From Candidatus Gottesmanbacteria bacterium (GTDB lineage: Bacteria; Patescibacteriota; Microgenomatia; UBA10105; UBA927): 45,476 nucleotides of DNA. Shown piece by piece: positions 4,745 through 45,330 of this stretch. The position numbers and the translations under genes were made by a program. Positions within the stretch are counted from its first letter, which is position 1. The number at the start of each line of letters is the position of its first letter. The notes under the pieces are model-generated. The model was not told the DNA's origin. It saw only the letters and a list, made by a program, of their open reading frames with translations, and ran no database searches. The stretch spans positions 3,627 through 49,102 of the forward strand of contig JAHFKK010000002.1 in assembly GCA_023245335.1 (NCBI GenBank). Reading direction: 5' to 3'.

Positions 4745-7524
4745 ACAGCGGCATGAGACTCAGGCTGAAAGGGTTTAAGGGCGTGAAGGCTGGTCCGTCC
4801 ATGGATTACACTGGCCTCGATGAAATAGAAATTGATTTCGCGGGCATCCACGGCATCACCACGTTCGATGGAGAATGTGGAATTGGGAAAACGACGGTCA
4901 TGGAAAGCATGTCGCACTTCCCACAACTCATTTCCCGCGGTGGCCCCCTATGGCAACACGTTCTGCTTCGTAACTCCGAAAAGGAGTTCGAGAGTGATTT
5001 TATGGGGAATCACTACCGGAGCGTCATCAAGATGGATGCCCGATCCGAAGAGACCGAAGGTTTCATGTGGGTCAACGGGAAGCCTGTCGTCAACGGGAAG
5101 ATCTCTGCCTACAAGAAATACGTCGAGAGCGTATTCGGGAACCCGTCAACAGTTTTTAGGTCTCAGTTCTGCCCGCAGAAATCGAAGAAGACCAAGGACA
5201 TGCAGATCGAGAACATGACGACCGGGGTGTTCCAGAGCCTGCTGGCGGATTTTCTGTATCTGCAAAAGTATGCCATCTGGGAAGATACGTCGAAGCAGTG
5301 CGCGAATGCAATCATGGCGCAAATGAATCAAATTACAGCGCGGATCGATGCCCTGCAGAAGCAACTTAGCGCCCGCGATGAACTCAATACGGCATATGCT
5401 CAGGAAATGGCCGCCGCCGAGTCGCTGGAGAACCAAAAGAACAGTCTCGTTGGTAATCTCTCGGCTCTCAAGAAAAGGGCGGATGAACTGAGGGAAATCA
5501 TCACCGCAAACACGCTCGCCCAGCAACGCCGGGCTGACATCGTGGCTCAAAAGGGGCGGGGTGAGGCCGACTTGGCCGCAGAAAAGGTGGTCGCTGAAGC
5601 CGAAATTGAAACCCTTAAAGCGAAGTATCGCGAAATTAATGCGGAAGTTGTCAAGGTGGAGGCAATTCTCCGCGAGAAGGACGCCGTACTTAAGGCGTCC
5701 GAGAGAGAAAAAGAACTCCAGGCAGCGATAAGCACAATCCTTCCCGAGATTGATCGGCTGAACGAAGAACTCTCGAAACACCAAGAAAGCGTTCACACCG
5801 TGGATCTGGAAATTCAGAAGATAGAAGCATCTATCCGGGATCTCGACAATGACCAGATTATTCAGACGCTCCAAAAGGAATTAGCGGATCTGGATAGGGA
5901 TATAAAAGATGAAGTTCACGCCCTGGAGCTAGCGGTCAACAAATATGCGGCGGAAAGAAAGGCCCTTGATAGTGATGAGGGGAAAAAGAAAATCGTTGCC
6001 GACATTTCTGACCTGGACAGAACAATAGCTGATCGCCAGCGTGATCTTGTGGATCTGGATAATGACCGGTTGCTGCATAGCCTGGATTCAGAGGTTAAGC
6101 GCCTCGCGGACCGCGTGGCTGAACGAGGCGGTTACGAGTTTCTCCCTGGGCAACCATGCTCAAGCACGACATGCATCTCCGTGATCGCCGCTACGAAGGC
6201 GGCCGAAGAGTTGCCGGCAGCTCGCGAGAAGTTCCGTGTCCGCTTTGATGAAATCGAGAACACGAAAAGCGAAATGCGGAAAGGCATCGATGACCTGACT
6301 ATCCAGAGAGAACAAGCACAGACCCTATTGTCAACTCGGAATACGGAAATAGAAAACGAGAAGGCCCGGCTCGGCAGCGAGATAGAGGCCAAGAGGTCAA
6401 CTTCTCAAGGTGTTACGCGTGGCTTATCCCGCCGATGCGACGTCGTTAAGGCCAACATTGAGGAACGGGGGAAATACATAACCTCAGAAAAGGGACGAAT
6501 CGGGGAAGAAAAATCCGCAAAACAAAAAGCCTTAGCTACCGGAAAGCTCACGGTGACCCAAAAAACCGAGACTCTTTCTACCATCAGGAAAAACGTTGCT
6601 ACCCAAAGACTAGAGATCTCTACCCAGAAGACTTTGGCCGAAAAGGCGAATGACATCCAGATCGCCATTACCAGAAAAGTGGACCTTGACGCGCAACTCG
6701 CTGAAGCAACTACCCAAGGGCTGGCAAAAAGAAACGCCTGGGATGCGCGGGAATCACTTGTGAAAGCCACTATCGCTTCATTTACCGATACCATCAGCGA
6801 AATAGATAAAAGTATCGACCACGAAGCCGGTAGAAAACTGACAGATTACAGTGAAGAGATTGCCGGCATAGAAGCTACTCATCTCCCGAACATTGAAAAG
6901 GAAATATCGCATGCGCGGGAGAAGTTGGCAACCATGCGGGCCGATCTCGCAAAGGCCAACGAGGCCCAGTTGGAACTCACGACCGCGCAGGAAGAAAAGG
7001 CCAACATGATGCGCGAGATTTCCGAGTGGAACTATCTCCGCAACACGTGCGGGAAAGATGGGCTCCAGGCCACAGAGGTCGAAGGTGCGGCACCCCTGAT
7101 CGTTACCGATGCCAATGACCTGCTATCCAGCGCCTACGGTACCTTCTATTCCATCCGGTTACAAACACATGATGAAGCTGGGAAAGAAGATCTGCGGATC
7201 AAAATCATCACCGAAAGCGGCAGAGAAGTTGACCTGGATGATATCTCTGGCGGGCAAAGAGTTTGGAATGTCCAATCCCTATGGCTGGCCATGTCACTCC
7301 TCAGTCAGAAGAAGTCCGGGCGTAAGTTCGATTACTTCTGTGCGGATGAACAGGACGGCGCCCTGGATACCGAAAATGCCCGGCTTTTTGCAGCCCTCTA
7401 TGATCCCTTCATGAAGATTGGCCAATTTCAGGATCTATTCTTCATCACCCATAAGCAGGAATGCAAGGCAATTGCTCAAAACGTGCTCAGGTTTGAACAC
7501 GGTAAAAATCCGGCATGGAGATAA
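4741..7524 (+). CDS. sbcC: Rad50/SbcC-type SMC ATPase
   Basis: Walker A GECGIGKTT, long coiled coil, CSSTTC hook-like motif, SGGQ signature, Walker B DYFCADEQDGALD; ATGA overlap with sbcD. Confidence 0.85.
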   Translation: MNSGMRLRLKGFKGVKAGPSMDYTGLDEIEIDFAGIHGITTFDGECGIGKTTVMESMSHFPQLISRGGPLWQHVLLRNSEKEFESDFMGNHYRSVIKMDARSEETEGFMWVNGKPVVNGKISAYKKYVESVFGNPSTVFRSQFCPQKSKKTKDMQIENMTTGVFQSLLADFLYLQKYAIWEDTSKQCANAIMAQMNQITARIDALQKQLSARDELNTAYAQEMAAAESLENQKNSLVGNLSALKKRADELREIITANTLAQQRRADIVAQKGRGEADLAAEKVVAEAEIETLKAKYREINAEVVKVEAILREKDAVLKASEREKELQAAISTILPEIDRLNEELSKHQESVHTVDLEIQKIEASIRDLDNDQIIQTLQKELADLDRDIKDEVHALELAVNKYAAERKALDSDEGKKKIVADISDLDRTIADRQRDLVDLDNDRLLHSLDSEVKRLADRVAERGGYEFLPGQPCSSTTCISVIAATKAAEELPAAREKFRVRFDEIENTKSEMRKGIDDLTIQREQAQTLLSTRNTEIENEKARLGSEIEAKRSTSQGVTRGLSRRCDVVKANIEERGKYITSEKGRIGEEKSAKQKALATGKLTVTQKTETLSTIRKNVATQRLEISTQKTLAEKANDIQIAITRKVDLDAQLAEATTQGLAKRNAWDARESLVKATIASFTDTISEIDKSIDHEAGRKLTDYSEEIAGIEATHLPNIEKEISHAREKLATMRADLAKANEAQLELTTAQEEKANMMREISEWNYLRNTCGKDGLQATEVEGAAPLIVTDANDLLSSAYGTFYSIRLQTHDEAGKEDLRIKIITESGREVDLDDISGGQRVWNVQSLWLAMSLLSQKKSGRKFDYFCADEQDGALDTENARLFAALYDPFMKIGQFQDLFFITHKQECKAIAQNVLRFEHGKNPAWR

Positions 7525-7533
7525 GGGGGGGAT

Positions 7534-8217
7534 ATGAGCTTTCATGTATTTTTCTCAATGTCCGTCGGGCTTTCCTGCCCCCTCATGGTTCCCAAAGGGA
7601 AACTTGCAGAGATCCTGCGCCATGTCCAATGGGTTGAGGCTGAGCTGGGATATAAAACAGAACAGTATCGGGACAACCCAAAGCACTGGAAGACCACAGC
7701 CCCCAAAGAAGGGGTTTCGGATGAAACCTATTGCGAAACAGCGGAGGCACATAACGACTACGTAAGAAGCCTTTATGATGATTTTGGCAAATGGTCAAAG
7801 GAGCCTTCCGAAGATGGTGAAATAATCACCCCCGACGATGCCAAACAGTTTTGGCATGGGCTCCAGACCATCAACGTTCCCTTAAGCAGATGGACAAAAG
7901 AATATTTCAAGGCCCGCATGGACGCTCTTTACGAAACGATGCGCGGGCGAGACGCAGAAGGGGTTTCATTTGACGCCAAGCCTCTCACCATAGAGCAAGC
8001 GAGTGCAGTAATAACCCTGTTCGATCAGTATCTCGATGACCACGATATTCGCCTCGAAGTCCCCAAAGGGTACGACTCGCTCTATTCCTCAGACGATTAC
8101 GCATGGTGCGACAAGTGCGGGGCCGTCCACTGGGATGATGTCGATTACGAAATCAAACGTTGCCGTAAGAAGGGAGGGTGCTCCCTTCGCAGAGATTATC
8201 CGCCTGAAAAGGATTGA
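7534..8217 (+). CDS. Hypothetical protein with C-terminal Cys motif
   Basis: ORF with ggggggatatg upstream; WCDKCGAVHWDD...RCRKKGGC. Confidence 0.55.
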   Translation: MSFHVFFSMSVGLSCPLMVPKGKLAEILRHVQWVEAELGYKTEQYRDNPKHWKTTAPKEGVSDETYCETAEAHNDYVRSLYDDFGKWSKEPSEDGEIITPDDAKQFWHGLQTINVPLSRWTKEYFKARMDALYETMRGRDAEGVSFDAKPLTIEQASAVITLFDQYLDDHDIRLEVPKGYDSLYSSDDYAWCDKCGAVHWDDVDYEIKRCRKKGGCSLRRDYPPEKD

Positions 8218-8219
8218 TC

Positions 8220-8639
8220 ATGGCCACCCCACTTTTCACTGGAATCATCGATAAGGGCAAGCTGATCTTGGATCAGCCGCAACGCTACCTTGTTCATTTA
8301 GCAAAGCACGAGGGTAAGCGGATTGAGCTTGTGCTTAGAAAGCGGCGATCAAAGAGATCAGATAGCCAGAATCGCTGGTATTGGGGGGTCTGTGTGGAGA
8401 TTTTGGCCAACCATTGTGGGTATGATTCGGATGAAATGCACGAAGCTTTAAAAATTAAATTCCTGAGCAACCATCAGGAAGATGAAAAAGGACTCATGCG
8501 CGTGGGTAGCACGGCTCGCCTGACAACAGATGAATTCATCGCATATACAAACAGGGTTGTCCGTTGGGCAGCAGAATCACTGAGCGTCTACATCCCAGAC
8601 CCAAGCCAGGTTGATTATGACAGGGCGGTGAATGGTTAG
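8220..8639 (+). CDS. NinB-like phage recombination protein
   Basis: RSDSQNRWYWGVCVEILANHCGYDSDEMHEALKIKFL resembles the NinB family; recombination operon context. Confidence 0.65.
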   Translation: MATPLFTGIIDKGKLILDQPQRYLVHLAKHEGKRIELVLRKRRSKRSDSQNRWYWGVCVEILANHCGYDSDEMHEALKIKFLSNHQEDEKGLMRVGSTARLTTDEFIAYTNRVVRWAAESLSVYIPDPSQVDYDRAVNG

Positions 8640-12204: not shown

Positions 12205-13272
12205 ATGAGCGGTTTTTTTATCGGTAACATTTCAGGAATTACGCGGCTAAGGATTGACGGCAGGGAATTGATGAGCACCCCGGGTCTCGAATTTTTTGAC
12301 AGTCAGATCAAGGACCGGGCCTTTTGCGATCTGTTTCCCGAGAATGCCGAAAAGAACGCAGGATTTGTATCTATCAATGACTGCCTGGATTCGGATTTCA
12401 TTACCGAAAAGACGCTGCTGGGCGATTACCGAACCTTCTCTTTGAGGATCGACCGCCGTGCGATCCCTGCATCATCGCTGAAAATCAAGGTTCTCGAGGC
12501 AACGAAAAAACGCCTGCAGGAAACCGATAGAAAGCGGCTCTACCGGCATGAACGCGAAGAGCTTCGCGATTCGGTAAAGCTGGCTCTCCTTAAGACCATC
12601 CCGCCCGTAACGGACATATACGATGTGGCAATAAATACAACAACCGGGGCCGTCTATTTCTCATGCGTGTCCAACAAAGCCATTCAGGAGCTACTGGACA
12701 TCTTCAAGGATGCCTTCAAGATCGTTTTACAGCCCTACGATGTTGTGGACGTAGATTATCTAAGGAAAAACGAACTATCCCCCTTGACCATTGGCCGGGA
12801 GTTCATGACCTGGCTATGGTTCAAGAGTGAACAGAAGGACGGTTGGATCTGCATCAATCGTGAAGATTATGCCGTGAATTTCACCCGCCGCATTGCCCTG
12901 GAATCAGGAGAGGGCGACTATACGGAAACGGTAGTTTGCTCAGGCAGAAAATCAGACCTCAATGAGGCAAAAGAAGCGGTTCGGCAGGGAAAGAAAGTCA
13001 AAGAGGCACGGCTGAGAATCGAGAAGGACGGCGCGGCCTGGGAATTCGGATACAAGGGCGACTCCTTTCAATTCCAGTCCGTTAAGCTCCCCATGTCCGC
13101 CGATATCGAGGAGAACGAAACGCCGGAGGGCCGGAACCTGGAACGGCTCTTTATGATGGCCGCCATTACCGAAACGATGGATGAATTATTAAGGATGTTC
13201 GTGACCTTACGGTTATCACCTGAATGGCCGGATGAGTTTTCAGCAATGCTTAGCTGGGCGGCAGAACCCTAA
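12205..13272 (+). CDS. rdgC: RdgC-like recombination-associated protein
   Basis: SLKIKVLEATKKRLQETDRKRLYRHEREELRDSVKLALL...YDVAINTTTGAVYFSCVSNKAIQELLDIFKDAF pattern typical of RdgC; RBS aaggagcaagcc. Confidence 0.7.
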   Translation: MSGFFIGNISGITRLRIDGRELMSTPGLEFFDSQIKDRAFCDLFPENAEKNAGFVSINDCLDSDFITEKTLLGDYRTFSLRIDRRAIPASSLKIKVLEATKKRLQETDRKRLYRHEREELRDSVKLALLKTIPPVTDIYDVAINTTTGAVYFSCVSNKAIQELLDIFKDAFKIVLQPYDVVDVDYLRKNELSPLTIGREFMTWLWFKSEQKDGWICINREDYAVNFTRRIALESGEGDYTETVVCSGRKSDLNEAKEAVRQGKKVKEARLRIEKDGAAWEFGYKGDSFQFQSVKLPMSADIEENETPEGRNLERLFMMAAITETMDELLRMFVTLRLSPEWPDEFSAMLSWAAEP

Positions 13273-13322: not shown

Positions 13323-14324
13323 ATGACGACAATTTTAACACCCGATCCATTGCGTAAATCAGTAGAAGCGGCAAGTGAGGGGAAATGCACCGTACTCTAT
13401 ACGAGCAAGGGCTATCCCTCCTACATGACCATCGTTCCGGCCTTCAAATGCGAAGAGCTTGCCGATGATCTCGGCACTGGCCTTCATCCTGCCTTCATCG
13501 TTGGTGGCCGGGAGGTCAGTGAAGTGATGATTGGCACCTACCTTTCTGTTATACGCGGCGGGCAGGCCCTTTCACTTCCCTACCAGAACCCCCACACTTC
13601 AATTAATCATGACGATGCAAAGGAAGCGTGTCTTGCCAGCGGCCCCGGCTTTCACCTTATGACCAACTGGGAATCGGCGGCGCTCGGTCTGTGGTGCATG
13701 AAGCATGGCCTTCCGAGAGGAAATACCAATTACGGCAAGTCCCATTCTCACCCGGAAGAGGAAGGAATGGTTTGTGAGCATGGCAAAACGCTTACCGGAT
13801 CAGGCCCGATAACTTGGCGGCATGATGGGACAATGGGAGGGATAGCTGATCTGGTAGGGAATATTTGGGAACACCAGGACGGCCTGAAACTCGTTGCCGG
13901 AAAGATCATCATGCCCGCTGACAACGATTTCACCCTGCAGTGCGAAGATGAGTGGCCGGATACGGGGGTAAGAATTGACGGCGCGAATGGCAGTATTCAG
14001 ATTTCCGACAAGGTTACGAGCCGTGGCTGGCAATCGGAATCCTTCAGAAATATTACCGTGAAGGAAGGGTACGACATGCCCGTTTCCATCAAACAGGCCC
14101 TTATTGCGCCGTGCTCATTGGCCCTCAATGAGAATAACGAACCGCTGGGCAACGTATGGGCCGATAACACCGCCAAATTCACCAGCGTTCCGGTCCGTTT
14201 TGGGGGCTGGGGCAACGCAGGTGATGCGGGCGTTGCGGCTCTGTACCTCAGCCTTCCGCGCACGGGCGTGATCACGAGCATCGGTTTCCGCCTCGCCTAT
14301 ATCTGTAACGCGAAGTCGGTATGA
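13323..14324 (+). CDS. DGR target protein (C-type lectin / FGE-sulfatase-like fold) with VR1 at the C-terminus
   Basis: FGE/CLec-like sequence (ATNWESAALGLW..., GNIWEHQDG..., SRGW, GFRLAY); C-terminal 115 bp matches the DGR TR with only A-position differences. Confidence 0.88.
   Translation: MTTILTPDPLRKSVEAASEGKCTVLYTSKGYPSYMTIVPAFKCEELADDLGTGLHPAFIVGGREVSEVMIGTYLSVIRGGQALSLPYQNPHTSINHDDAKEACLASGPGFHLMTNWESAALGLWCMKHGLPRGNTNYGKSHSHPEEEGMVCEHGKTLTGSGPITWRHDGTMGGIADLVGNIWEHQDGLKLVAGKIIMPADNDFTLQCEDEWPDTGVRIDGANGSIQISDKVTSRGWQSESFRNITVKEGYDMPVSIKQALIAPCSLALNENNEPLGNVWADNTAKFTSVPVRFGGWGNAGDAGVAALYLSLPRTGVITSIGFRLAYICNAKSV
14183..14297 (+). repeat. DGR variable repeat VR1
   Basis: Hand alignment to the reverse complement of 44774-44888, no indels: 14 mismatches, all at TR adenines; all non-A positions identical. 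Confidence 0.93.
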
Positions 14325-14330
14325 TCTGTC

Positions 14331-14350
14331 GGGCGGGCGATAGCCCGCCC
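14331..14350 (+). promoter_or_regulatory. GC-rich hairpin downstream of VR1 (probable DGR target-site hairpin; may also act as terminator)
   Basis: GGGCGGGC-GATA-GCCCGCCC perfect 8-bp stem, 4-nt loop, followed by ATTTTT. Confidence 0.75.
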
Positions 14351-15319: not shown

Positions 15320-15687
15320 AAGCAATTTCAATCAGGCAGCCCTGGGCGATCACAATCTTTCGGGGAAAGGACGTGGAGAATAGAACGAAACCATCAAAGT
15401 ACCGGGGGCCACTTCTTATCCATGCGTCGCTGAGGTCGGACAAAGAAGCCTCTGCATTCATCAAAAAGAACTTCCCGGGCGTGCTTCGTGAAGTCGATTT
15501 CTACAATCTCGGTTGCGTTATCGGGCAGGTGGACATGGTTGATTGCGTGACGGACCACTCTTCGCGTTGGTTCTTTGGACCCTACGGGTATGTTTTCGCG
15601 AATCCCGTTCTTTTCAGGAATCCGGTTCCTTACAAAGGCATGTTGGGCCTTTATAATGTGCCGGATGTTCTTATAGTGGAGGCTTGA
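15316..15687 (+). CDS. ASCH-domain protein
   Basis: MKAISIRQPWAITIFRGKDVENRTKPSKYRGPLLIHAS is the characteristic ASCH N-terminus; ttggaggaaaatagc RBS. Confidence 0.8.
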   Translation: MKAISIRQPWAITIFRGKDVENRTKPSKYRGPLLIHASLRSDKEASAFIKKNFPGVLREVDFYNLGCVIGQVDMVDCVTDHSSRWFFGPYGYVFANPVLFRNPVPYKGMLGLYNVPDVLIVEA

Positions 15688-16379
15688 TCGTGGGAAAAGA
15701 AGAGCTTCTTGCTGAAAAGGTTGTCGCCTACCTTCAAGATCTCCACTGGGAAGTTTACCAGGAAGTGAAGCCGAAAGGCTTTGGAGAGGTTGCCGACATT
15801 GTAGCGGTGCAATCAAATCGCGTCTGGATTGTCGAAGTAAAGATGTCATTCTCGCTTGCGGTCATTGCCCAGGCGTACAACTGGCGAAATTTCGCTCACT
15901 GGGTATCTATCGCAGTGCCGTCGCCAAAACGATACAAGAGAGATTTCGGCTATGAAGTCCTCAAACATTACGGAATTGGCCTGATTCGGGTCTCTGATTA
16001 CACGGGCAGCCTTGCGGAAGACATTATAAAGCCAAGGCTTTTACGAAAGGCTTTGTCTAAGAAAATCACTGGATCTCTGTGTGAAGAACAGAAAACATAC
16101 GCGAAGGCCGGGAATAATAGGAGCGAATTCTATAGTCCCTTCAAGCGTACCTGTAATGAAGTGGCCAGGGCCGTTCACGCAAATCCGGGAATCAATATGA
16201 AATCGTTAATAGAAAAGATCGATCATCACTATGCCTCCGTTTCCTCAGCCAAAACCTCCTTAAGGTATTGGACGGACGCGGGAAAGATACAAGGAGTCAG
16301 GACAGAAAGGGACGGGAGGATTATCAAGTTTTATCCCGATAATAAACCATCAAACCTTAGCGAAAGGGGACTTACGTGA
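15684..16379 (+). CDS. PD-(D/E)XK nuclease-like protein with C-terminal HTH-like region
   Basis: GFGEVADIVAVQSNRVWIVEVKMS (D...EVK core); TTG 15684 or GTG 15690 start. Confidence 0.6.
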   Translation: MIVGKEELLAEKVVAYLQDLHWEVYQEVKPKGFGEVADIVAVQSNRVWIVEVKMSFSLAVIAQAYNWRNFAHWVSIAVPSPKRYKRDFGYEVLKHYGIGLIRVSDYTGSLAEDIIKPRLLRKALSKKITGSLCEEQKTYAKAGNNRSEFYSPFKRTCNEVARAVHANPGINMKSLIEKIDHHYASVSSAKTSLRYWTDAGKIQGVRTERDGRIIKFYPDNKPSNLSERGLT

Positions 16380-18412
16380 TTCAGGAAATACGCCATTTTC
16401 ATTTATTCTGTGGGCTGGGTGGAGGCGCGAAGGGATTTAACCAGGGAGAGGCCCGGGTCGGCAATATGGTTGCAAAGTTCAGGTGCATCGGCGGTATTGA
16501 TGTCGATGCCGCCGCGATCCGCGATTTCGGGAAGCTGGCCGGCGTGCCCGGCACCCTCCTTGATCTGTTCGACCGTGAACAGTACCGGGATTTTCATGGA
16601 GTGGAGCCACCGGAGACCTGGCGTGAAGCGACCACGGTGGACATTCAGCGGGCCGCTGGCAATGAGCGCCCTCACATCGTCTTTCTATCCGCACCGTGCA
16701 AGGGATTCAGCGGCCTCCTTTCGGATGTTCGGAGCAAGACAGATAAATATCAGGCGTTAAACCGGCTTACGCTGCGCGGCGTGTGGTTGATGTTGGAAGC
16801 CTTTGCCGATGATCCACCTGAATTAATCGTTTTCGAGAACGTGCCTCGCATAGCGTCACGAGGCCGCGCCTTGCTTGATCGGATCAATACGCTACTTCGC
16901 CATTATGGATACGCGGTAGCAGAGACAACACATGATTGCGGTGAGATCGGCGGACTGGGGCAGAGTCGCAAGCGCTTTCTTATGGTTGCACGTCATACCG
17001 AAAAGGTCCCTCCCTTCCTCTACGAGCCGGAAAAGCGCCCCTTGCGTTCCGTTGGCGATGTCATTGGCCGCTTTCCTCTTCCCGGCGCCGGACTTGCCGG
17101 ACCTATGCACCGGGTCCCGTCTCTTCAATGGAAAACATGGGTCAGGCTGGCATTTGTTCAGGCCGGTTCTGATTGGAGGTCGCTTAATCGCCTGAATATC
17201 CAAGACGGATACTTGCGCGACTATTTGATTGTCCCGGAAATGTATAATTGTGCTTTTGGAGTTACCCCCTGGGAATCTCCGACAGGGGTTGTTACCGGGA
17301 ACGCACGTCCGGCAACGGGAGGTTTTTCTGTAGCCGACCCTCGTTGCGATGATCAGAGGGGGCACTATCTCGGCCTCTGCAAGTGGGATAATCCATCGGG
17401 AGCGGTATCAGGGCGCGGCTGCCCGACATGCGGGAAATTCGCGGTCTCTGATCCGCGATATTCCGGACGTGAGTATTCTCAATATGGTGTCCGACCATGG
17501 AGCGAGCCTTCCGGGGCAGTAAGCGGTCAATCTGCGCCTGGAGGGGGAATGTATTCTGTCGCGGACCCACGTATGCCGGAAAGCCGATTGCGGCAAAACG
17601 GTATTTACCGTGTTGTAAAATATGATGAAAAGTCAGGCGCGATCACAGGCGCTGCGCACCCGGGCGGCGCGGCAATGTCCGTTGCAGATCCGAGAGGCAA
17701 TGGATTTATGGGAAAATACCGAGTTACAGGATACGATAATTCAACGGGCACGGTTATCTCTGGAAGCACCACAGGAATGGGGGCTTTTGCTGTGGCAGAC
17801 CCGCGTACCAAAATGGACAAAAAGCCGGGGGATGACTGGGCGGATGGCGGCTCGTTGGGTATAGTGCCGTTTGATGCCCCGTGCGGAGCTGTCAAAGGTA
17901 CTGCATGTCACGACAACGGGCGGTGGTCAGTGGCCGATCCGCGTTCTGGACTCAAGCGTGAGCGGGGTGATGATTTTGTCGGGGGAGGCCATTATGGTGT
18001 TATTCCTTGGGATTCTCATAGCGGGGCCATTACCGCTGCTGCCCACTCGTGGGATCACGGCAGGCATTCAATCGCCGATCCGCGCCTTGAAATTTTACCG
18101 ACACCCGACACCCGGCTAATCGCCCGAATCATCTCGGAGGATAATACATGGCATCGACCATTTACCACCCTCGAACTGGCCGCCTTACAGGGCCTTGTCG
18201 AACCCGAAGAACAACTTGCGCTTGACGGTCTATCGGATAGCGCTTGGAGGGAGCGTATCGGAAACGCCGTGCCCCCTCCGGCAGCGAGGGCCATCGCCGG
18301 CGTGATGGGACAAGTTCTTCTTCTCGCTTGGTCCGGAGAAACGTTTGCGTTGGGATCCACTCCAATATGGGTGCGACCCGTAGCAGTCGCTTTGTCCGTC
18401 GCGCAATCATAA
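16376..18412 (+). CDS. C5 cytosine DNA methyltransferase with tandem-repeat insert
   Basis: HLFCGLGGGAKGF, SAPCKGFSG, VFENVP, QSRKRFLMVA, C-terminal RIGNAVPP; seven internal ...SVADPR repeats. Confidence 0.85.
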   Translation: MIQEIRHFHLFCGLGGGAKGFNQGEARVGNMVAKFRCIGGIDVDAAAIRDFGKLAGVPGTLLDLFDREQYRDFHGVEPPETWREATTVDIQRAAGNERPHIVFLSAPCKGFSGLLSDVRSKTDKYQALNRLTLRGVWLMLEAFADDPPELIVFENVPRIASRGRALLDRINTLLRHYGYAVAETTHDCGEIGGLGQSRKRFLMVARHTEKVPPFLYEPEKRPLRSVGDVIGRFPLPGAGLAGPMHRVPSLQWKTWVRLAFVQAGSDWRSLNRLNIQDGYLRDYLIVPEMYNCAFGVTPWESPTGVVTGNARPATGGFSVADPRCDDQRGHYLGLCKWDNPSGAVSGRGCPTCGKFAVSDPRYSGREYSQYGVRPWSEPSGAVSGQSAPGGGMYSVADPRMPESRLRQNGIYRVVKYDEKSGAITGAAHPGGAAMSVADPRGNGFMGKYRVTGYDNSTGTVISGSTTGMGAFAVADPRTKMDKKPGDDWADGGSLGIVPFDAPCGAVKGTACHDNGRWSVADPRSGLKRERGDDFVGGGHYGVIPWDSHSGAITAAAHSWDHGRHSIADPRLEILPTPDTRLIARIISEDNTWHRPFTTLELAALQGLVEPEEQLALDGLSDSAWRERIGNAVPPPAARAIAGVMGQVLLLAWSGETFALGSTPIWVRPVAVALSVAQS

Positions 18413-19329: not shown

Positions 19330-19587
19330 ATGCAAGTAGCAAGATCCGACATAGAAGCCCTCGCTTCAATGATTGCCAGGGAAGTTGGGGCAAGCATCAT
19401 GGAAAAATCTACCCCTGGTCGATGGCTGACCATTGAGGAGGCCATGAAATACGCCAAGGTTAAATCGCGGAACACAATAAGAAAATGGATCAATAATGGG
19501 TACATTTATGCCCATAAGCGGTCAGGGGAGTGGATAGTAGACCGGGAATCGATTGATGACTGGTTCCTATCCGATAAGGTGTGTTGA
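19330..19587 (+). CDS. Excisionase / MerR-type HTH DNA-binding protein
   Basis: GRWLTIEEAMKYAKVKSRNTIRKWINNGYIYAHKRSGEWIVDRESIDDWF. Confidence 0.75.
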   Translation: MQVARSDIEALASMIAREVGASIMEKSTPGRWLTIEEAMKYAKVKSRNTIRKWINNGYIYAHKRSGEWIVDRESIDDWFLSDKVC

Positions 19588-19619
19588 CAATGATGCCTCT
19601 TCTTTCGTATAAACAACGC

Positions 19620-20648
19620 ATGGCAACCCTATGGAAAAGACCGAACGGTGTTTATTACGTGTCCTGGGAAGAGAGCGGGAAGACCCGCCGTAAATCTCTT
19701 TCAACGGCTGACAAGCGCATAGCAGCTACCAAATTTAACCACTTCCAGCGCCAGCTTATCGCCGGTAAGGTCAAGCCGATTTCTGATGGCATAGCCGAAT
19801 CTTTCTTTGATTTCTGCGATGAATTTCTTGAGCACGTTGAGGCTTCCACCAGCGGGGCAACTTATGTCCAGTATTCCGGCGCGCTGAAGAAGGCGAGGTC
19901 TTCATGGGGGAATGTTCCCCTGACGCATATCACCGCCCGCCATATTGACACCCTAATAACTGACCTGTCGCGGGAGAAGTTAAAGCCCCCGACGATCAAC
20001 AAGATCATCCGGCACGTCAAGGCAGCACTATCCAAGGCTTACAAGTGGGAATATATCAAGCATCCTGTCGCGTTCCCAAAGAAGATAAAAGAGGAAACGG
20101 CGCTGCGCTTCCTAAGCATCGACCAGCTCCGAGCCTTGATAGGCAAGATTGATGACCAGGAGTTTGCTGATTATTGTCTTTTCTCTGCCTACACTGGCAT
20201 GAGGTCGGGCGAGATAGCGCGCCTTAAATGGTCTGACGTTGATAACCCAGAAGGTTTTTTGAGAATATCACCGAAGCAGAAGAACAAACATGAATCACGG
20301 ATACCGATTAACAGTCACGCAAGATCGATCCTTGAGCGGCGTAAAACAGAGACGGCGGCCGGAAAGATATTTCGGTTCTCCTGTTTAACATGGATATCCC
20401 AGAAGTTCAAAATAGCGACGGTTAAGGCCGGGATGCCTACAGCCCGCTTCCACGACTTGCGACATACTTTCGGCTCTCATTTGGCAATGGCTGGCCAAAA
20501 CCTTAAAGCGATTCAAGATCTCATGCGGCATGAGTCAATTTCATCGACAATGGTTTACGCGAAGGTGTCACCGGAGTACTTAAAGGAGGCTTCCGAGAAG
20601 TTGAATTACGGGCCTATGCCGATGGTGGGGAGAAAGGGGGATAAATGA
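19620..20648 (+). CDS. int: Tyrosine-family site-specific integrase
   Basis: YTGMRSGEIARLKWSD, HDLRHTFGSHLAMAG, LMRHESISSTMVYAKVS (R...HxxR...H...Y). Confidence 0.9.
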   Translation: MATLWKRPNGVYYVSWEESGKTRRKSLSTADKRIAATKFNHFQRQLIAGKVKPISDGIAESFFDFCDEFLEHVEASTSGATYVQYSGALKKARSSWGNVPLTHITARHIDTLITDLSREKLKPPTINKIIRHVKAALSKAYKWEYIKHPVAFPKKIKEETALRFLSIDQLRALIGKIDDQEFADYCLFSAYTGMRSGEIARLKWSDVDNPEGFLRISPKQKNKHESRIPINSHARSILERRKTETAAGKIFRFSCLTWISQKFKIATVKAGMPTARFHDLRHTFGSHLAMAGQNLKAIQDLMRHESISSTMVYAKVSPEYLKEASEKLNYGPMPMVGRKGDK

Positions 20649-25177: not shown

Positions 25178-26848
25178 TCACTTTCCGGCGTAAAGCCCTT
25201 CAATATAGTTATCGACAACGCTTTTCATGCGCCTCCCGACTGCTGATTCTGTCAGCACCCCTTCCCCAGCAGAGACCGGCTGTCCATCGGGGCCTATAGC
25301 CTCCCCCCCTATCGAGCCAGTGATCTTTTTCGGGAACATCTTCCGGAACTTTTCTTCATCGATCTTCATGATATCGGTAAACATGTAATTGGCCAGAGCA
25401 TTCCGATCAACCGACGAAAATTCGGCATCAATTAGCCCGATAAGCTGCCCCATCATCGTCGCGAATGTAACCCGGCCCTCCATATTTTCGCGTTCTTCCC
25501 GTTCAAGGGCGGAAGACACAGAATTGAAGACAACCCGGTAAGGCTTTTCACCCGGCACAAAAACCTTACCGTATTTGTAAGCGATATGAACATCGAAGAG
25601 GCTTTCCAGGCCAGATAAAACGGCCCGCCTGAGCATATTCGCTTTGATTGCAGCAAGAACAGAGATCCGGAAGAATCCTCCATCTCCAAGGCCCCCTGAC
25701 AGCATTTCCCCGAAACCCAACAGCGCGGGGTCTACCCCCAGCGCCGATCCGAGGCGCTTCACGTGGAAATCAATGTCTGCCAGCCCGTCAAGGTTTGGGT
25801 TTCCTTCCACCGTCGAAATGTCCAACTGCCCCTTGCCATCGCCAAAAATAGGGATGAGATGGTTGATAACGGTCTGCACATATCCACGCCTTAATGATTG
25901 CTTTGCGTTGGCTTGATTCACTTTGTGAATTTGGCCTGTAACGGTGTTCAGGTATTGAGAGGCCCGCTGGGGAGAGAGCTTGCCGGTATGGACGCCGATC
26001 ACTCGTTCAAGGCGCGCCGCGTTTTTTCGGGACATATTTAGCGATAGAATGGCCTCTTGCAGATCCATCCAAGGCGCAAAGGCCGTCTCTATCAGCGATG
26101 TCCCATAGTTTTGGCTCTCAATAACGCTCTCGGACCTGTAATCGTCGTTCGAAATATCGAAGATAGACCCGTCAAGGCGCGGGGGTTCAAATTCGCTTTC
26201 GGCTTTCCATATGGGAATGCGAAAGGCGACAAATTTCCACGGCTCCATCAGCGCGATGTATCCGGCGTTTTGGCTCGGGTTTTGATGCGCCGCCGTGTAA
26301 CCGGCTATCTGCCCAGCCTGTTCGTAAGATCTGATAAATTGCGGATGCGAGTAATAATCAGATCTTACCAGCTCCACGCCTTTACGGTGCTGGCCATAGA
26401 TGCGCGCAAACCACACTCCGTTCAACGCCGCGTTGTAAGCCCAAAATTGAACGTTACGGTTGACCGTTTCCTTGAAGGTGTTGCGAAGATCGATAGTGAT
26501 GGGATCGTCTTTGTCGGACGTTGATTCTATAGAGATAATCTCCCCCGTATCGGACCTTGCGGAAAGAGCATGAGAAATGTGCATTTTTAGGGCTGAATCA
26601 ATGGTGGGGTCATCGGCCATGACCCTGAATATCTTGTATTTCAGTAATCGGTTATTGGGAAGATCGGTAAGCTGATACGAATCCTCGCCGCCTGCCTCTC
26701 CGACAGGCGCTCCCGACAGAAGGGCATCGGCGATAAAGTCCTCGTAGTTGGCGACTGGCGGGATGGAAACGTTGGCATTCGCACCCCGATCTTTCCCCAA
26801 AAAGCCGGGAAACAGCCTTTGCCAAAATGCTGGTTTTTTATCTTCCAT
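25178..26848 (-). CDS. Portal protein
   Basis: FRVMADDPTIDSALKMHISHAL..., MEPWKFVAFRIPIWK, NLDGLADIDFHVKRLGSALGVDPALLGFGE portal-like pattern. Confidence 0.75.
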   Translation of the reverse strand: MEDKKPAFWQRLFPGFLGKDRGANANVSIPPVANYEDFIADALLSGAPVGEAGGEDSYQLTDLPNNRLLKYKIFRVMADDPTIDSALKMHISHALSARSDTGEIISIESTSDKDDPITIDLRNTFKETVNRNVQFWAYNAALNGVWFARIYGQHRKGVELVRSDYYSHPQFIRSYEQAGQIAGYTAAHQNPSQNAGYIALMEPWKFVAFRIPIWKAESEFEPPRLDGSIFDISNDDYRSESVIESQNYGTSLIETAFAPWMDLQEAILSLNMSRKNAARLERVIGVHTGKLSPQRASQYLNTVTGQIHKVNQANAKQSLRRGYVQTVINHLIPIFGDGKGQLDISTVEGNPNLDGLADIDFHVKRLGSALGVDPALLGFGEMLSGGLGDGGFFRISVLAAIKANMLRRAVLSGLESLFDVHIAYKYGKVFVPGEKPYRVVFNSVSSALEREERENMEGRVTFATMMGQLIGLIDAEFSSVDRNALANYMFTDIMKIDEEKFRKMFPKKITGSIGGEAIGPDGQPVSAGEGVLTESAVGRRMKSVVDNYIEGLYAGK

Positions 26849-26938
26849 GGATATGATTAGAAATGATAGCCATGGAAAAGTAAATGATGGAAAAACGAAC
26901 GTTTATGATATAAAAACGAATGTTTGTGAGGAGTGAAA

Positions 26939-26957
26939 AGGGCCGGATGCACGGCCC
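26939..26957 (-). terminator. Hairpin downstream of 26987-27400 gene
   Basis: On - strand GGGCCG-TGCATC-CGGCCC followed by TTTTCAC. Confidence 0.5.
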
Positions 26958-26986
26958 CACACAATAGGCAGAAAACAGGCGGTTGC

Positions 26987-27400
26987 CTACAACAGAACTG
27001 CCATCATTTCCATATCGGGATCGTTGGAGGCAAACTCGATAGTGTCGCCGCCGTCTATTGTCTCCATGGCATGGAACGGGTCATCAAGGAAGTTTTTTGT
27101 CAGCCTCAGCTCTTCATGAACGAAAGCAGCCAGCATATTGAACTCTGGCTTTCCATAATCCAGATCCAATAGCCATGCTTGGTCAATGAAATCGCCGAAG
27201 ATGAGGTCGCCCCGGTCAATAAAGAGCTTCTTTAGGGGCCACCAATAGGGGCCATAGACCCGATAGCGGAGAGGGCTTTCCAGGAGGATTGTCCTCAGAT
27301 TTGCCAAAAACTTCTCCATCCATTGGTCAACCGGCTGATTAGCGGTTGCCTGATCCAAAAGAGGCTGTAAATCTTGCGTCGACGGCTTGTAGATAGTCAT
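26987..27400 (-). CDS. Hypothetical virion-region protein
   Basis: Long ORF collinear with structural genes, RBS AAAGGGAG upstream. Confidence 0.6.
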   Translation of the reverse strand: MTIYKPSTQDLQPLLDQATANQPVDQWMEKFLANLRTILLESPLRYRVYGPYWWPLKKLFIDRGDLIFGDFIDQAWLLDLDYGKPEFNMLAAFVHEELRLTKNFLDDPFHAMETIDGGDTIEFASNDPDMEMMAVLL

Positions 27401-27438
27401 AAAATCTCCCTTTGCGGTAAAATCGCTTTCACCTTTAA

Positions 27439-27467
27439 GAAAGGGCCGCCATCACGGCGGCCCTTTC
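27439..27467. terminator. Strong hairpin terminator after 27485-28285 gene
   Basis: GAAAGGGCCGCC-ATCAC-GGCGGCCCTTTC 12-bp perfect stem. Confidence 0.7.
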
Positions 27468-27484
27468 GTTTTCCTGACAATCGC

Positions 27485-28285
27485 TTAGGCTGCTGCGACA
27501 AGCCCATGCCCTTCGAGTCTTGCAATAACTGCGTTCGCCGCATCCTTAACCCCGTTGACGCCGCTTATGAAATTGTTCATTTCTTCCGCAGACACGAACC
27601 CGTAACCTCCGTTCGTGGCCGTTCCAGAGACCGCCGCACCATCAGCAACATGTGCGCTTGGAGTTGCCACCGCAAGATTTCCTGTCTCATCAAACGTTGC
27701 GATCTTGCCCGTAGGAACCGGATCGACCGGGACCTTCGTCGCAAGGCTGGCCAAGCTCTGGTTGTCAGAACCTGGAGCGTGGGAGTTGGTAACGGCTCCT
27801 TTTACTGCCGCCACAGTTACAGCGTTCGGCCCGCCCGTGTCAAGCCCTTGGTCGGTGCCTTGAGTATGCACCTCGTTTATTTCAAGAGAGGTATTGAGCC
27901 ACACTGCCGCGCCTTCCGTTGCGTCAACACAGCGGTAAACCTCGTGAGGTGATGCCGTCGTGTTTATCCATACGGACCCGACAGAGTACCCCTCCGCCGC
28001 GTCGTTGTCCGCATCCGGTGCAGCCGCGCCCGCATAATTATCCTTCTGAAATGGCATGTATTCAGGAATTACGCCATCCTCGAAGGTCTCGACCGACGTG
28101 ATCTCCATAGCGGGGCGCTTCGCTTGCACCGCCGCCGTAATCGCTACGGCCTGGTCAGCACCGACATCAACCAAAACACCTGCATCACCGACCGCATACC
28201 CTGGCACTTTAAAATCAGCGCCGCGCCCGATGTAGTGCAGGCCCGATGATCCGTGATTTTCAAACTTCAACCTTGTTTTTAACAT
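27485..28285 (-). CDS. Putative virion/decoration protein
   Basis: Ala/Gly/Thr-rich beta-type sequence between terminator and the giant gene; aggaggacaaaa RBS. Confidence 0.5.
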   Translation of the reverse strand: MLKTRLKFENHGSSGLHYIGRGADFKVPGYAVGDAGVLVDVGADQAVAITAAVQAKRPAMEITSVETFEDGVIPEYMPFQKDNYAGAAAPDADNDAAEGYSVGSVWINTTASPHEVYRCVDATEGAAVWLNTSLEINEVHTQGTDQGLDTGGPNAVTVAAVKGAVTNSHAPGSDNQSLASLATKVPVDPVPTGKIATFDETGNLAVATPSAHVADGAAVSGTATNGGYGFVSAEEMNNFISGVNGVKDAANAVIARLEGHGLVAAA

Positions 28286-28299
28286 TCTTTTTGTCCTCC

Positions 28300-31200
28300 T
28301 TACGCTATTAATTCATAGATTGCCTTCAGGTCTGTCGATGAAGGAACATGCCACCACGCCCCTTCAAATGCGTCCCCCGCATCCGAAAAGAACTGAGCCC
28401 CATAACGCGCTTTCAGGATATCTTTCGTCCTGTAAAGCGCCCCGCTTTTCCCATTCCTGTCTTGAAAAAACCACTTTGCAAAGGGTTCTAAAACGGCCCC
28501 CCGCCGCCCCTTGAACCCCGGTAAAGCCATGCCGGTCAGATTTGTTTTGACCGTAATGCCTATCTTTGCAAATGATTCTGCTATATCCTGCGGAATCTCT
28601 TTAAACCTCGGATCGTTTTTCAAGGATTCCTGCGCCGCCTTATCTTGCTCCGATTTCTTGACAGCAACCTCCCTCTCCAGGCTGACCTGTAGATCAATAA
28701 GGTACTGATGCACAATGCCATCTATCTCATCGGTGTTATCGCCAAGCGGGTCCGCTTGTGTGGACGCAAGGCCGGAAACCTCCCTAATAATATCGCCAAG
28801 GCGGGCCTTCCCGTCTACCAGGTCGGAAACAAGCTCATCAACGCTTGAATATCCATACCCGCTTTTTGGGTCTTTTGAATAAGCAGCCCATACCTTTGCG
28901 CACGCCTCGAGTACTTCCGCGTTCGTGGCATTCCTTCCATAGCCGCGAGCGACCTCTTCATATCCATTGCCAAAGAGAGCCTTCATGATACCGCGCATAC
29001 TGTACGTGTCGCCATCGTGCCTTGCTGCGAGGTAGGATTCGCAGATTCCCTTTTTGAAATCTTCGTTTCCGGCCTCCGGATAAATGATAGTTGCGGCTCC
29101 CCCCTCGGTCGATTTGAACGTTGATCCATCAACGATTTGAATTTTCCCATCCTGGCCCCTGACCACATAGGGACTATAGGCGTTCCAGTTGATTTCCTGC
29201 CGATGGTCAAGAAAGGTGTCCTTGTCAATCTTCCCGTCAATGAGAGAGCTATAGTCATGCTGTTCTGACAATGCCCTTTTGAGGTTCAGCTCTTTCTCGG
29301 AATAGGAGACCTTTTTCAGCCCCTTGCTTTCCAGTTTTGCCATACCGCTGGCTAAAAACCAGTTCCAGTCATCGGGTACGCGGTCCAGGTCGCTTGATCT
29401 AATCCGCCCGATAATATCTTCATACTGGAAGGCTCGCCGTACCGCGTCCACGGCAGTAACTCTAATGATTCCGAGCGGTGCATATTCATCCTTATATTCG
29501 TAGCAGTCACCAACAGCGACAACCTTACCGCTCAGGGTCACGCAGGCGTTTTCCGGCTTCTCAATCAGGGCTTCATCAAATGGAAGCTGCCCCTTTTTAG
29601 CCTTTTGTTTCAATAAGCCGGATGTCTGTTTCACCACGGAGGTCAGCTTGACCCTCTTGTCTTCAAAGGTCTGATCCAACATCCCCAGCTTTGTAGTGGA
29701 GTTTTTCAGGGTTTGTTGCTTGTCAATAATCTGACTGCCCAAACGTGCCCGCTCATCGCCTTCGGTAGTCAATCCGCGTTCCTGCAGGCGCTTGATTTCG
29801 GCTTCCAACTCAGGGATTCTTTTTGACAGGCGTTCGCGTTCGGCCTCTTTTACCCCATCAAGCCCGGCAAGGTCAGCGGTCGCCTGCGCAAGCATCTGCA
29901 ATTGGTTTGCAAGGCGTCTGCGTTCTTTTTCCGTCTCTTCCGCCTGCTTTGCAGACAGTCTTTCCAGCCGGCGCTTCTTTGCCGCTTCGGGATCGGCATC
30001 AAGCATGTCCATCATATCGTCTTGGCTCAGAGCATTCGCGTTTTCAGCCGTCGTTTCCGTTCCATTAAAGAGATCCTTCATCCAGTTTGATTTTGCCTTC
30101 AGGATCTCAAGGCGATAGGCATCAAAGGACCCTTTCCCACAGTAATAGTAGATGTGGATCATGGAGGCTTCGTTACCTTGCCTTACTCCACGTCCATTCC
30201 TTTGCTGGATACTCGCAGGCGTCCACGGTAAGGTTAAGTGGTGAATGGCCGTCGTCCCCTTTTGGAGATTTACGCCAACTTCGGCCTTTTTGTTGCAGAT
30301 CACGAACTTGAGCCCCCCGGAATTATAGGCATCGGAAATCTTCTGTAGGGCCGGTCCGTCCGCTTCCTCGGCATTGATAATACCTATCAATTTGGCAATG
30401 GTGGGAATATGATGCACAACGAGGCGCAATATTTTCTGATGCTGCGACTTCTCTTCCGTGAAGATAAGTTGCTTACCATTCGCCTCGAGATCCGTTCTTA
30501 GATTTTCAATCAGCCGTGCATATTTGGGCATGAGCGGGTGCGATACGCTCTCCGACGCGATCCCGTTATCCGGGATGCGATCAACGACAAAGTTTTCATA
30601 TTCTTTCGGAAACACGACAACATAGCTGCCGCCTTCCATTCGCGCCGTTGTTTCGAGCTTTACGGTGATTTCCTGAGCCCGGCCCTTATTTGCCTCGGGA
30701 TCAATGCCCAGGGAATCCATTTCCTCATCATCAAGGACGCGCTTGACCTTGATGGACTCAGGAAGGCTCTTAATCAGGTTATCCACCCTGTCTTTATCTG
30801 GGCCGCCGAAAACGAAGGTCATTGTCTTGTTGTACAGGTCCATGTCGGTAGTAACCCTGTCCATATCCCGGATCACCGAGAACATGCTTTCTTTTTTCTG
30901 GCCCTTTTGCGGCGGCTTTGCTGCCTCCTTCGCCCGCTCACGCAGGTCGGCATAAATCCTTTGCTGTTCTTCGGTCAGCTCGATATCAAGATTAACCTCT
31001 TCATGGGGCGGCATCTTGATTTGATCCGGGAAATCATCGGCGCTTTTCATATTGACATATTTATGGAACATGGTACGCAAGCCATCCAACTGCTTGAATC
31101 CGGTCAGACCGTCCTTGGATTTGATACCTCCGTCAACCATCATCTTATCCACATTCGTTATGTTTCCGAACGTCCTTATGAAGTCGTCAGGCGTGTAAAT

Positions 31201-34200
31201 CCCGTATCTCTCGAACTCTTCCAGCGGACAGACATAGGAAAGCATATTGAATATTTCAAAGGGGCTGTTTGTGACCGGCGTTGCCGACAGCATATAGGCC
31301 CCGCGGCCATTGTTAGAGTCGCGCATGTAGGCCATTTTCATGGTCATATCAAGAGCACGCTTTGCAGGCGGAGCCGTGGGCAGATATGCCACGTCCTGAT
31401 AATGCTCGCCACCCAGCATGTTGTTCTTGAATTCATGGCATTCATCAATGATTACATCGGTGAATCCCATGTCTTCAAAGTAGGGAAGCTCTCCCTTCTT
31501 TGACGTTCCTTCATCGGAAAATTGTTGTTCAAGCCTGGTCTTTGCAACGTCTTCATCATAGGAGATCTTCCGGTCCGCTCCTTTTCCGTCAGCGGGTGGC
31601 GGCATACTTTCGGCAATGACCGCCGCGTGCATCTTTTCGCTTATCAGGGACCGCTGAACCATCTTGTCGGCATAGGCTTTCTTGCTGTTCGGCTTCATGG
31701 GGATCATGCCGAACTTTTCTTTTGTCATAACCACAAGAGAAAAGTTCGCTTGCGGGATCTTCCACATGGCCGCCCAAACGTCTTCCTTGCTGTTTCGCTC
31801 CACAAGAACGTCCTGATATTCGAGCTGCCCCGTAAGGTTGTTTACTTTGGGTTCCCCCTTTTCATCCTTGACCGCTTCCTGTTCGATCTGGCCATCCTTG
31901 CCGACCTTGGGCTCAAAGCCGACAAAGAGCACATCGTTATGATTTCCCAGGAACTTCTTTGATTCGTGATACCAGTTGCCGAGCACTGCTTTCGGAACCG
32001 CAATACAGTTTTTCTTTGATCTGCCGAGCTTCTTATTGTAGGCATAGAGGGCAAGGCCAGAATAGGTTTTTCCGAGCCCCACGTTATGAGCAAGAATGCC
32101 GCGCCCCTCTTCTGATAACCGCCTGACAGCCGCGTTTTGATAGCCATGCAGTTTCACCTGGGGCGAAACATCCGTCATGCCTAAATCAGCATCCTCATAA
32201 TCAAAGGGCGTGAACCCATTGAATCGCCTATTGTATTGCTCAGTTATTTCATTGATTTCGGTATGCTGCTGCATCCACACATTGAACTGTTCTTCAAGTA
32301 CCCGGCACCGATCCTTGTACTCCTTGATTCGATCCTGAGCATCCTCCCCGGATGACGTGACATTATCGCCATTCAGATACTTGAGGAACTGTTTGGGGAA
32401 TCCGCCTTTGCTATCGTCAATGCCATAGAACCGCGCAAAGGGATTATCGTAATCCTCCTTGAGCTGGTATGATTTGACTATCTTCCCGCTATAGGGATCT
32501 TCCCTTTCAACCTCTTCCAGCTTTCCGTATGACAGGTGCGGATAGCCATTTTCCTTGAGAAAATCGACAACATATTTCTTGCTGAACCACTTTTGCCGCA
32601 TATCGAAAGAGATATCTTCCGGGTTTGTTGTCTTTCGCCGGCGCATGATCTCATCGATCTGCTTAGCGTACTTTTCCTTGATCCGATCATCGGTCTCCCC
32701 GGCCAGGGCGCCACTCATTGCCTGAATTTTGGGGTAAATATCGCCTACAGTATAGCGCCCCATCGGGACAATGAAGCCATCCGGAGTAATCGCAAGCGCG
32801 TCATCGTCGGCAAGATCGGCAAGGGATTTGATTTCACGTTTCCCGGTATAGAGCTTTTGGATATCTTCAAGCTCTATTTGCTGAATGCCTTCCCGGACAA
32901 AGAGATGTTCAACCAAAGCCTGAAGGTTCGTAGAATCAAACTCCAAGGTCCGGCCCGATCCGTCCATATTCCCGGCAAGGAGGTCGGAAAAGTGGCCCTT
33001 CTCATCGACTGCGTTCTTGAAAAGGCCAAACATCTTTGACGTTTCGCCGGTTATCAGCAATCCCTTGTTGTTTTTGGGGTGCCCGTAAGTGTCTATTTCC
33101 TTGGAAACAAGCTCTTGCAGCTCAATGCGGTCCGCGTCTTCGGCTGTGCCATCGTTGACGGAATTCTGATAGCGGGCGATCATACCGCCAATGATAGAGC
33201 CACGGAATATTTGTTCCTGATATTCCTCTTTTGGCTGACTCATGGCAAACTCAATGGAGGCTTTCTGCAGGGGCGTCAAGAATTCGGGAAACGCCTTGAA
33301 GACGGAAAAGAGTTGCTTTGCAGACAGCACCAACGCACCCTTTGGCGACGATAGAACCGCCTTCAATTCGTCCAGAGATCCCGCGCCATATTTCTCCTTG
33401 TCGATACTCATCGACGTATCGTTGATCTTGATCACCCGGGACCACGCGCCGTCTTTCAATTCATGTTCAGTCCCGTTGATGATCTTTCTATCTCCCTCCG
33501 CGTAGTTTCTGACGATGGGATCCGCAGCGTCAAGAAGCCCCCAGTTGATACGCGAATCGAACCGCTGAGCAAGGCGGGCCTTCAAGGTGGCGCTGTCAAT
33601 GTCGCCATCAACAATCTCCCGGCTCCATCGGTCCCCTTCTACTTTCGGGACCCACTTGCCCATGATAAAGGGCCGCCCCTCGCCAAGCCAGTATTGACCG
33701 CTTACGAATTCATCCCACACGACATTTGCGGCCTTCATGGTGTCAAAAGGAATGGTGTCGATCTTTTCCAGGAAATCTTTCGGATGCTTCCTAAAAACGA
33801 CGATATCCACAACGGTATCAGTGCCCTGAGCGCCAAACGTTTTGGAGGGCAGTTTATGGGCTCCCAGGAATTCAGCCTTTTTACTGACTGCGATTCTGAA
33901 TTTCTCCCATGGTCCACCCTTAGCACCTACGATATTGATAGGAACAACGAGGCAGCAAAGGCCGCCCGGCTTTGTTTTGTCCAGGGCTCTCAGGATAAAA
34001 TAACGCTCTATCCTCTTTTCATCCTTGTAATCCGGGTCATCGTGAGCGCTTGCGCCACGTGCGTTCCCGAAAGGAACATTGCCGACAACGGCGTCAAAGG
34101 TTTCGTCAGGCGTCTCCATAACCGTCTTTTCAAAGGACTGATTCTTGATCAGATCGCCCGGGTTGAGAAGTTGTGCGACCCTTGAACCGACCGGATCAAG

Positions 34201-38006: not shown

Positions 38007-38015
38007 CTTATTTCC

Positions 38016-39905: not shown

Positions 39906-39922
39906 CGCTCATCCCGCCTATC

Positions 39923-44773: not shown

Positions 44774-44888
44774 GTCGAGGCGGAAACCGATGTTCGTGTT
44801 CACGTTCGTGCGCGGATTGTTGAGGTTCAGAGCCGCAACGCCCGCATCACCTGCGTTGTTCCAGTTCCCAAAACGGATCGGAACGCTG
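44774..44888 (-). repeat. DGR template repeat (TR)
   Basis: Same strand as and upstream of RT; AAC-rich; near-identical to VR1 and VR2 except at its A positions. Confidence 0.93.
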
Positions 44889-45265: not shown

Positions 45266-45289
45266 TAAATTCCCTATGGACAGGTTAAG

Positions 45290-45311: not shown

Positions 45312-45330
45312 ACAGATTAACAGACACCAC

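Follow-up and report, generated by a model that had tools for sequence, protein, structure and literature searches.

The window analyzed here, a stretch of 45,476 nucleotides corresponding to bases 3627-49102 of the 49,102-bp contig G000:C19, very probably carries a complete diversity-generating retroelement (DGR), composed of Avd, template repeat (TR) and reverse transcriptase (RT), in a fragment of a temperate P1-like phage, together with one target gene in cis (TP2) and a second one in trans (TP1), the latter on the opposite strand at a distance of about 30 kb. According to the mechanism that we favor, the RT would copy the TR transcript, making mistakes at its adenines, and the mutagenized cDNA would replace the 3' end of any gene provided with a matching variable repeat (VR), an IMH and a hairpin with a GRNA loop; the ends replaced in this way would be those of the adjacent TP2 (VR2) and, in trans, of TP1 (VR1). 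TP1 represents another clade of the phrog_2889 family; it would have had its own landing pad on arrival, and its VR would then have been rewritten by the resident TR.

The DGR cassette and its phage

The cassette lies on the minus strand, where the 3' end of TP2, Avd, TR and RT follow one another in the same order found in BPP-1. The RT (43597-44622, minus strand, 341 aa) matches PF00078 (E 2.8e-20) and phrog_1423 (E 6e-122); in alignment it displays 34% identity with Brt of BPP-1 and 74-79% with the RTs of three related loci, L006, L007 and L018, which are the closest relatives retrieved, no near-identical sister phage of the window being found in the RT scans. Avd (44900-45313, minus strand) was identified by its matches to PF22296 (bAvd, E 2.8e-25) and to phrog_3206 ("Avd protein of DGR", E 5e-38); the start of the related proteins, MTKNLIIYEK, suggests that the true initiation site is at about 45265. 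The TR occupies positions 44774-44888 (minus strand). TP2 (45331-45476, minus strand) is cut by the contig end and is seen only as its last 47 codons, in the frame FDTTTERVPLRFG...RLAYIG*, with 66% identity to the terminal part of the L006 cis target. Its repeat, VR2 (45343-45455, minus strand), differs from the TR by seven substitutions at adenines and by none at other bases. The contig breaks off at 45476, right at the VR2 5' end, which would be expected if the reads vary there or if TR/VR repeats mislead the assembler.

The RT has the motif YMDN (residues 219-222) in place of YMDD, which is present in the aligned RTs of BPP-1 and BalMu-1. YMDN is also found in L006, L007 and L018, whose VRs are A-substituted too, and the DGR RTs of this clade, although apparently active, lack the second catalytic Asp; no description of a DGR RT with YMDN was found in the literature. 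Among the fetched loci the RT motif is mainly RYMDD or RYADD, RYMDN being confined to the close clade of the window RT, and a single RFMDN is present in L016. With the caveat of this motif, the locus combines a DGR-type RT, an Avd protein and TR/VR pairs with A-only differences located at ORF 3' ends; an IMH and a GC-rich GRNA hairpin follow both VRs and TP1 has a C-type-lectin scaffold.

The window is most of a fragment of a temperate P1-like tailed phage. A tyrosine integrase (19581-20648, plus strand; PF00589, E 2.7e-24) marks it as temperate, and profile matches identify in the part of the genome examined a P1-like virion arm (25178-43581, minus strand, opposite to TP1), with a portal and Ulx, DarB-like, DarA and Hdf homologs. 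TP1 is located in what would be, from gene content, the early or replication arm, between an RdgC-like gene directly upstream (12205-13272, plus strand; PF04381, E 2.8e-6; phrog_724) and a DNA methyltransferase gene 2 kb downstream (16376-18412, plus strand; phrog_116/32684); the plus strand of the contig also carries SbcC-like and helicase genes. No promoter-like site was found ahead of TP1. The contig is incomplete and the distance between TR and VR1 in the complete genome may differ from about 30 kb. The literature search gave no report of a DGR in a P1-like phage.

The main contig of the bin has a size of 1.2 Mb and a GC content of 0.50-0.51, versus 0.51 for the phage, and the bin, examined through stretches of its sequence, probably corresponds to a small-genome bacterium. 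Its 16S rRNA gene (L163, G000:C12:1037236-1039054) spans 1819 bases and thus contains an insert; 16S inserts are frequent among small-genome candidate-phyla bacteria. The phage contig may be misbinned and foreign to the bin, since its close relatives include a contig assigned to a Deltaproteobacteria MAG (L018). Another genome of the same class, G028, of about 1.1 Mb, contains six DGR-type RTs (loci L010 and L013-L017), with A-biased TR/VR pairs adjacent to them.

Adenine-confined differences and the origin of VR1

TP1 (13323-14324, plus strand) ends with VR1 (14183-14297, plus strand). Pairwise alignment of VR1 with the reverse complement of 44774-44888 extends over 115 positions without gaps; the 14 mismatches all fall on TR adenines, which are 26 in number (nine A>G, three A>T and two A>C), and the remaining 89 bases are identical. 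If 14 mismatches were randomly placed, the probability of finding all of them on TR adenines would be 2.7e-11 (about 3e-11), which rules out a chance similarity. Every substitution affects codon position 1 or 2, with the changes ATC>GTC, AAC>GGC, TAC, AGC or ATC, AAT>CTT and GAC>GCC; the VR1 codons correspond to residues 288-325 of TP1, and 17 residues, from S288 to A325, are encoded by codons with TR adenines. A search of the entire assembly with the TR as query revealed three TR-like copies, namely TR, VR1 and VR2. The preliminary description had reported the same gapless alignment and counts, the codon changes and the peptides encoded by TR and VR1, as well as the position of VR1 about 30 kb from the TR on the opposite strand, and both realignment and recalculation agree with it. 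Its proposal that one TR serves at least two targets in trans also holds, on the basis of the A-only pattern, of the intact pads on both targets, of the correspondence of VR1 with its own TR and not with those of the relatives, and of two phages having the same layout.

The relatives of TP1 were found by alignment-based scans, while single-sequence search gave none; the nearest ones are L023 (76% identity at the aminoacid level) and L007 (74%), which is a cis target in its own phage. Comparison of the TP1 body with L023 gave dS 1.19, dN 0.134 and 57% identity at third positions; the dN/dS ratio is about 0.11, indicating that the gene is under purifying selection. In the common core, VR1 has no non-A differences out of 87 positions with respect to the resident TR, as expected for a remote (trans) target lying outside the cassette, versus 14, 19 and 17 with respect to the TRs of L006, L007 and L018. 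Thus, the correspondence at 87 of 87 non-A bases, despite a dS of about 1.2 in the gene body, indicates that the resident TR has rewritten VR1; such identity would be explained only by copying from this TR, or by an extremely recent common origin followed by A-only mutation.

A different history would be that of a relic, in which TP1 formerly served as cis target for a different DGR, while its VR is now beyond the rewriting activity of this TR; indeed, L007 is both a close relative of TP1 and a cis target, so that TP1 may stem from such a cassette. However, a relic should retain the non-A bases of the TR that formerly served it, and should accumulate non-A changes, whereas VR1 has 0 differences of this type from the resident TR and 19 out of 84 from the L007 TR, with a dS of at least 1.2 in the gene body; moreover, the presumed relic of Treponema denticola SP32 matches a foreign TR (PMC4891356), while VR1 matches its own. 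This origin is thus very unlikely, and rewriting of VR1 by the resident TR is preferred.

Both VRs are followed by a landing pad. In VR1, this is formed by the IMH-side flank and by the hairpin (14298-14350, plus strand); the hairpin itself, GGGCGGGC-GATA-GCCCGCCC (14331-14350, plus strand), lies 33 nt past VR1, has an 8-bp GC stem and a GRNA tetraloop (folding z-score -2.3), in agreement with the Guo 2011 consensus, and has a T run behind, so that it also resembles an intrinsic terminator. The VR2 hairpin, GGGGCGGAC-GACA-GTCCGCCCC (45290-45311, minus strand), has a 9-bp stem and again a GRNA loop (z-score -4.0). Guo 2011 described the hairpins of phage DGRs as GC stems of 7-10 bp capped by a 4-nt GRNA loop, located 4-34 bp past the VR, and reported that the hairpin is required for BPP-1 homing and that IMH and hairpin, when transplanted to a foreign gene, are sufficient to retarget the BPP-1 DGR (PMC3240598). 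On these grounds, the presence of pads with GRNA hairpins after VR1 and VR2 indicates that both TP1 and TP2 are equipped for homing.

The pads also bear on the proposal that TP1 is a recent duplicate of TP2, complete with VR, IMH and hairpin, which would trace the shared VR to duplication and not to repeated homing. TP1 and TP2 do end in the same VR, and in two related phages, G061 and G070, described below, the pads look copied within the genome. However, the pads of VR1 and VR2 are only 70% alike and each is nearer to its own clade, that of VR1 to L023 (82%; 78% with L007) and that of VR2 to L006 (88%), suggesting that TP1 brought a pad of its own lineage and that only the middle was overwritten. 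Moreover, TP1 is only 48% identical to the cis target of L006, which TP2 resembles, and cis-type proteins are separated from TP1-type ones with 100/99 support. Duplication appears therefore highly improbable, and arrival of TP1 with its own pad accounts better for these data.

An assembly or binning artefact, in which the remote copy results from a chimeric join, could be invoked because the contig ends at VR2, TR/VR repeats being known to break assemblies, and because the phage contig may be foreign to the bin; this reading is hardly credible, since TP1 is one unbroken ORF of 333 codons with its own pad and with end-to-end homology to L023 and L007, the k-mer profile is constant across the window (0.95) and two separately assembled contigs of 80-90 kb share the layout. 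Finally, VR1 and TR encode the same lectin segment, but coding conservation of the C-type-lectin domain would neither fix the non-A third codon positions, which are the same as in the resident TR in 37 of 37 cases, nor confine 14 of 14 changes to adenines, and as a source of the likeness it is practically inconceivable.

The remote target and its counterparts in related phages

TP1 is a variable protein of 333 aa with a C-type-lectin fold, belonging to the phrog_2889 family (E 2e-94). The AlphaFold model, obtained with an alignment of 38 sequences, has a pLDDT of 92.7 and a pTM of 0.93; its best Foldseek match in the PDB is TaqVP (5vf4; TM 0.90, rmsd 2.0, 35% identity), which is also recovered by sequence (E 1.4e-61), while PvdO, TvpA and Mtd follow far behind (TM 0.33 for Mtd). 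TaqVP, from a Thermus aquaticus prophage DGR, shares with TP1 the full-length fold and the C-terminal VR, but is a cis target; its variable residues are exposed in a C-terminal lectin site (PMC6328139). By homology with this site, to which residues 288-325 of TP1 correspond, the variable residues of TP1 are expected to form one solvent-exposed binding site. Most likely, TP1 displays a variable C-type-lectin face for the binding of a ligand, which may be a receptor, with a putative role in the virion.

The same two-target layout is present in two other phages. In G061 (IMGVR_UViG_3300025030_000067, 90.5 kb) the RT is found at 6510-7532, the TR at 7712-7822 and the cis VR at 8255-8365, with seven A differences from the TR and no others; its remote target (59094-60059), about 50 kb off, differs from the TR at 11 adenines and at one non-A position at the edge, and lies between portal and terminase genes. 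A transposase gene and a ParB/DNA methyltransferase gene are located about 4 and 5.5 kb, respectively, from this target (L045:4395-5399 and 15628-17034), possibly as agents of target relocation or as mere neighbors. In G070 (IMGVR_UViG_3300025030_001282, 79.9 kb) the RT is at 71443-72465, the cis target at 69668-70726 and the remote one at 6746-7684; the cis VR has eight A and no non-A differences from the TR, the remote VR ten A and three non-A. The remote targets of G061 and G070 belong to the clade of TP1 and are 50-63 kb from the cassette; the two phages come from one metagenome and have a nearly identical cis target, thus they are not fully independent cases. At the three non-A sites of G070, TR and cis VR both have now GGC/GCG, hence adenines have apparently been lost from the TR at these sites; a VR seems to have overwritten the TR, the remote VR retaining a pattern derived from the older TR. 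The G070 TR (L079, from base 5151) reads GTGGGCGCGAGC where that of G061 has GTGAACAGCAAC, and the G070 cis VR shares this reading. Some other related phages (L053/L090, L056/L097 and L093) have tandem targets beside the cassette, with both VRs matching one TR.

Variation within a population can be followed among relatives of the G061 remote target. L026 and L027 show no differences over 870 positions of the gene body, yet they differ at 18 of 21 readable TR-A sites and at one non-A site; L024, L026 and L027 are short contigs without RT, linked by homology to G061, the only one in this family long enough to include the RT. This related phage family gives population support to an ongoing diversification, which would extend to VR1. 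The preliminary description had set its interpretation against non-A substitutions and against lack of A-confined variation in related genomes; in these relatives variation is confined to adenines but for one site, and the interpretation stands. Conversely, its statement that the remote VR is the more diversified could not be sustained, as it relies on a single snapshot with 14 of 25 substituted adenines in VR1 versus 7 of 25 in VR2 (Fisher p = 0.085); pooling of the three phages gave p = 0.04, hence the greater substitution in remote VRs than in cis ones is suggestive only.

In a phylogenetic tree from which the VR part was excluded, the split with 100/99 support has on one side the cis partners (L006 type and those of G061 and G070) and on the other the remote targets (TP1 and those of G061 and G070); TP1 does not cluster with the cis target clade, where L006 stands in for TP2, whose clade is judged from a short stretch. 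A wider tree revealed a TP1 clade of eight rows (99/96); one of them is a cis target, and the other seven, four of them near-copies, are not directly followed by Avd and RT. On short contigs, "distal" means that the cassette is absent from that piece. Although the cis targets of G061 and G070 are almost identical, their remote targets come from different subclades, hence the remote position was occupied on more than one occasion. In L023, a Mu-like fragment, the TP1-type gene follows a transposase-Gam region, and in L095 it follows a gene that we take, by analogy with phage Mu, to be GemA-like. The genes that precede TP1 and the L023 target showed no homology to each other. Within a genome, the identity of cis and remote pads is 93% in G061 and 100% in G070 (60-75 nt compared), versus 83-88% between the two phages, which suggests that pads may be copied among the targets of one genome.

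Relation to known systems and biological significance

The case described here is a well-supported instance of an already known phenomenon, since distal second VRs have been reported in Treponema, in cyanobacteria and, since 2025, in gut prophages. Multiple VRs are common, occurring in 28.6% of DGRs (PMC6642488), and a large metagenomic survey that looked beside the RT states that remote targets are missed (PMC8144416). The BPP-1 DGR of a Bordetella phage (Mtd, Avd, TR, Brt) has in common with the window the target-avd-TR-RT order on one strand, A-mutagenesis, the IMH and the GRNA hairpin; however, it has a single cis target and a YMDD motif in Brt, whereas the window has a second, remote target and YMDN, and the match between TP1 and Mtd is weak. 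In cyanobacteria (PMC7517822) and T. denticola (PMC4891356) the targets are also far from the core, with TR/VR homology at the 3' ends of lectin-fold genes, but they are located on bacterial chromosomes and not on a phage; SP32 differs further in the TR that it matches.

Among phages, the Faecalibacterium prophages Lagaffe_CP, CP11 and Lelie have, like the window, one DGR with two VRs in one phage; in Lagaffe the two targets are homologous Mtd-like proteins (PMC11792537). In the two-target phages nd4 and nd12 both targets are in one cassette, unlike the remote TP1 (PMC10743442). Population variation at both VRs is described for these phages; neither of the two papers gives an account of the phylogenetic relation between cis and remote targets. 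A close parallel is provided by a 2025 Nature study of temperate phages of the human gut, which describes four prophage species whose second VR belongs to a gene situated away from the RT cassette, near counter-defense genes such as a DNA methyltransferase (PMC12629997). The window phage differs in being P1-like, in coming from an environmental small-genome bin and in having targets from two clades, and the present analysis also covers landing pads and relatives. The combination of one clade in cis and another at a remote site across several phages, with evidence of adoption and of pad copying, was not found described in the literature.

These features lead us to put forward, only tentatively and as a possibility that we consider doubtful, that environmental temperate phages may follow a recurrent two-target plan. 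One TR would feed a cis target of a first clade and a distal target of a second clade, the latter being maintained away from the tail region, frequently within the early or middle arm; a portable pad of VR, IMH and hairpin would let the DGR adopt foreign targets. If this is true, TP1-type proteins would be expressed at another time than the tail genes, and the binding protein diversified by the DGR might be one outside the tail or one acting on the host. In any case, the placement of TP1-type genes away from tail genes raises the question of their ligand and of the timing of their production, and the conserved pair of pads is a natural system at hand for testing which features a DGR requires in order to adopt a new gene. 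Thus, the sequence evidence from these genomes indicates that one of the targets served by a phage DGR belongs to a different clade and lies tens of kilobases from the cassette, and that targets of this kind are recurrent.
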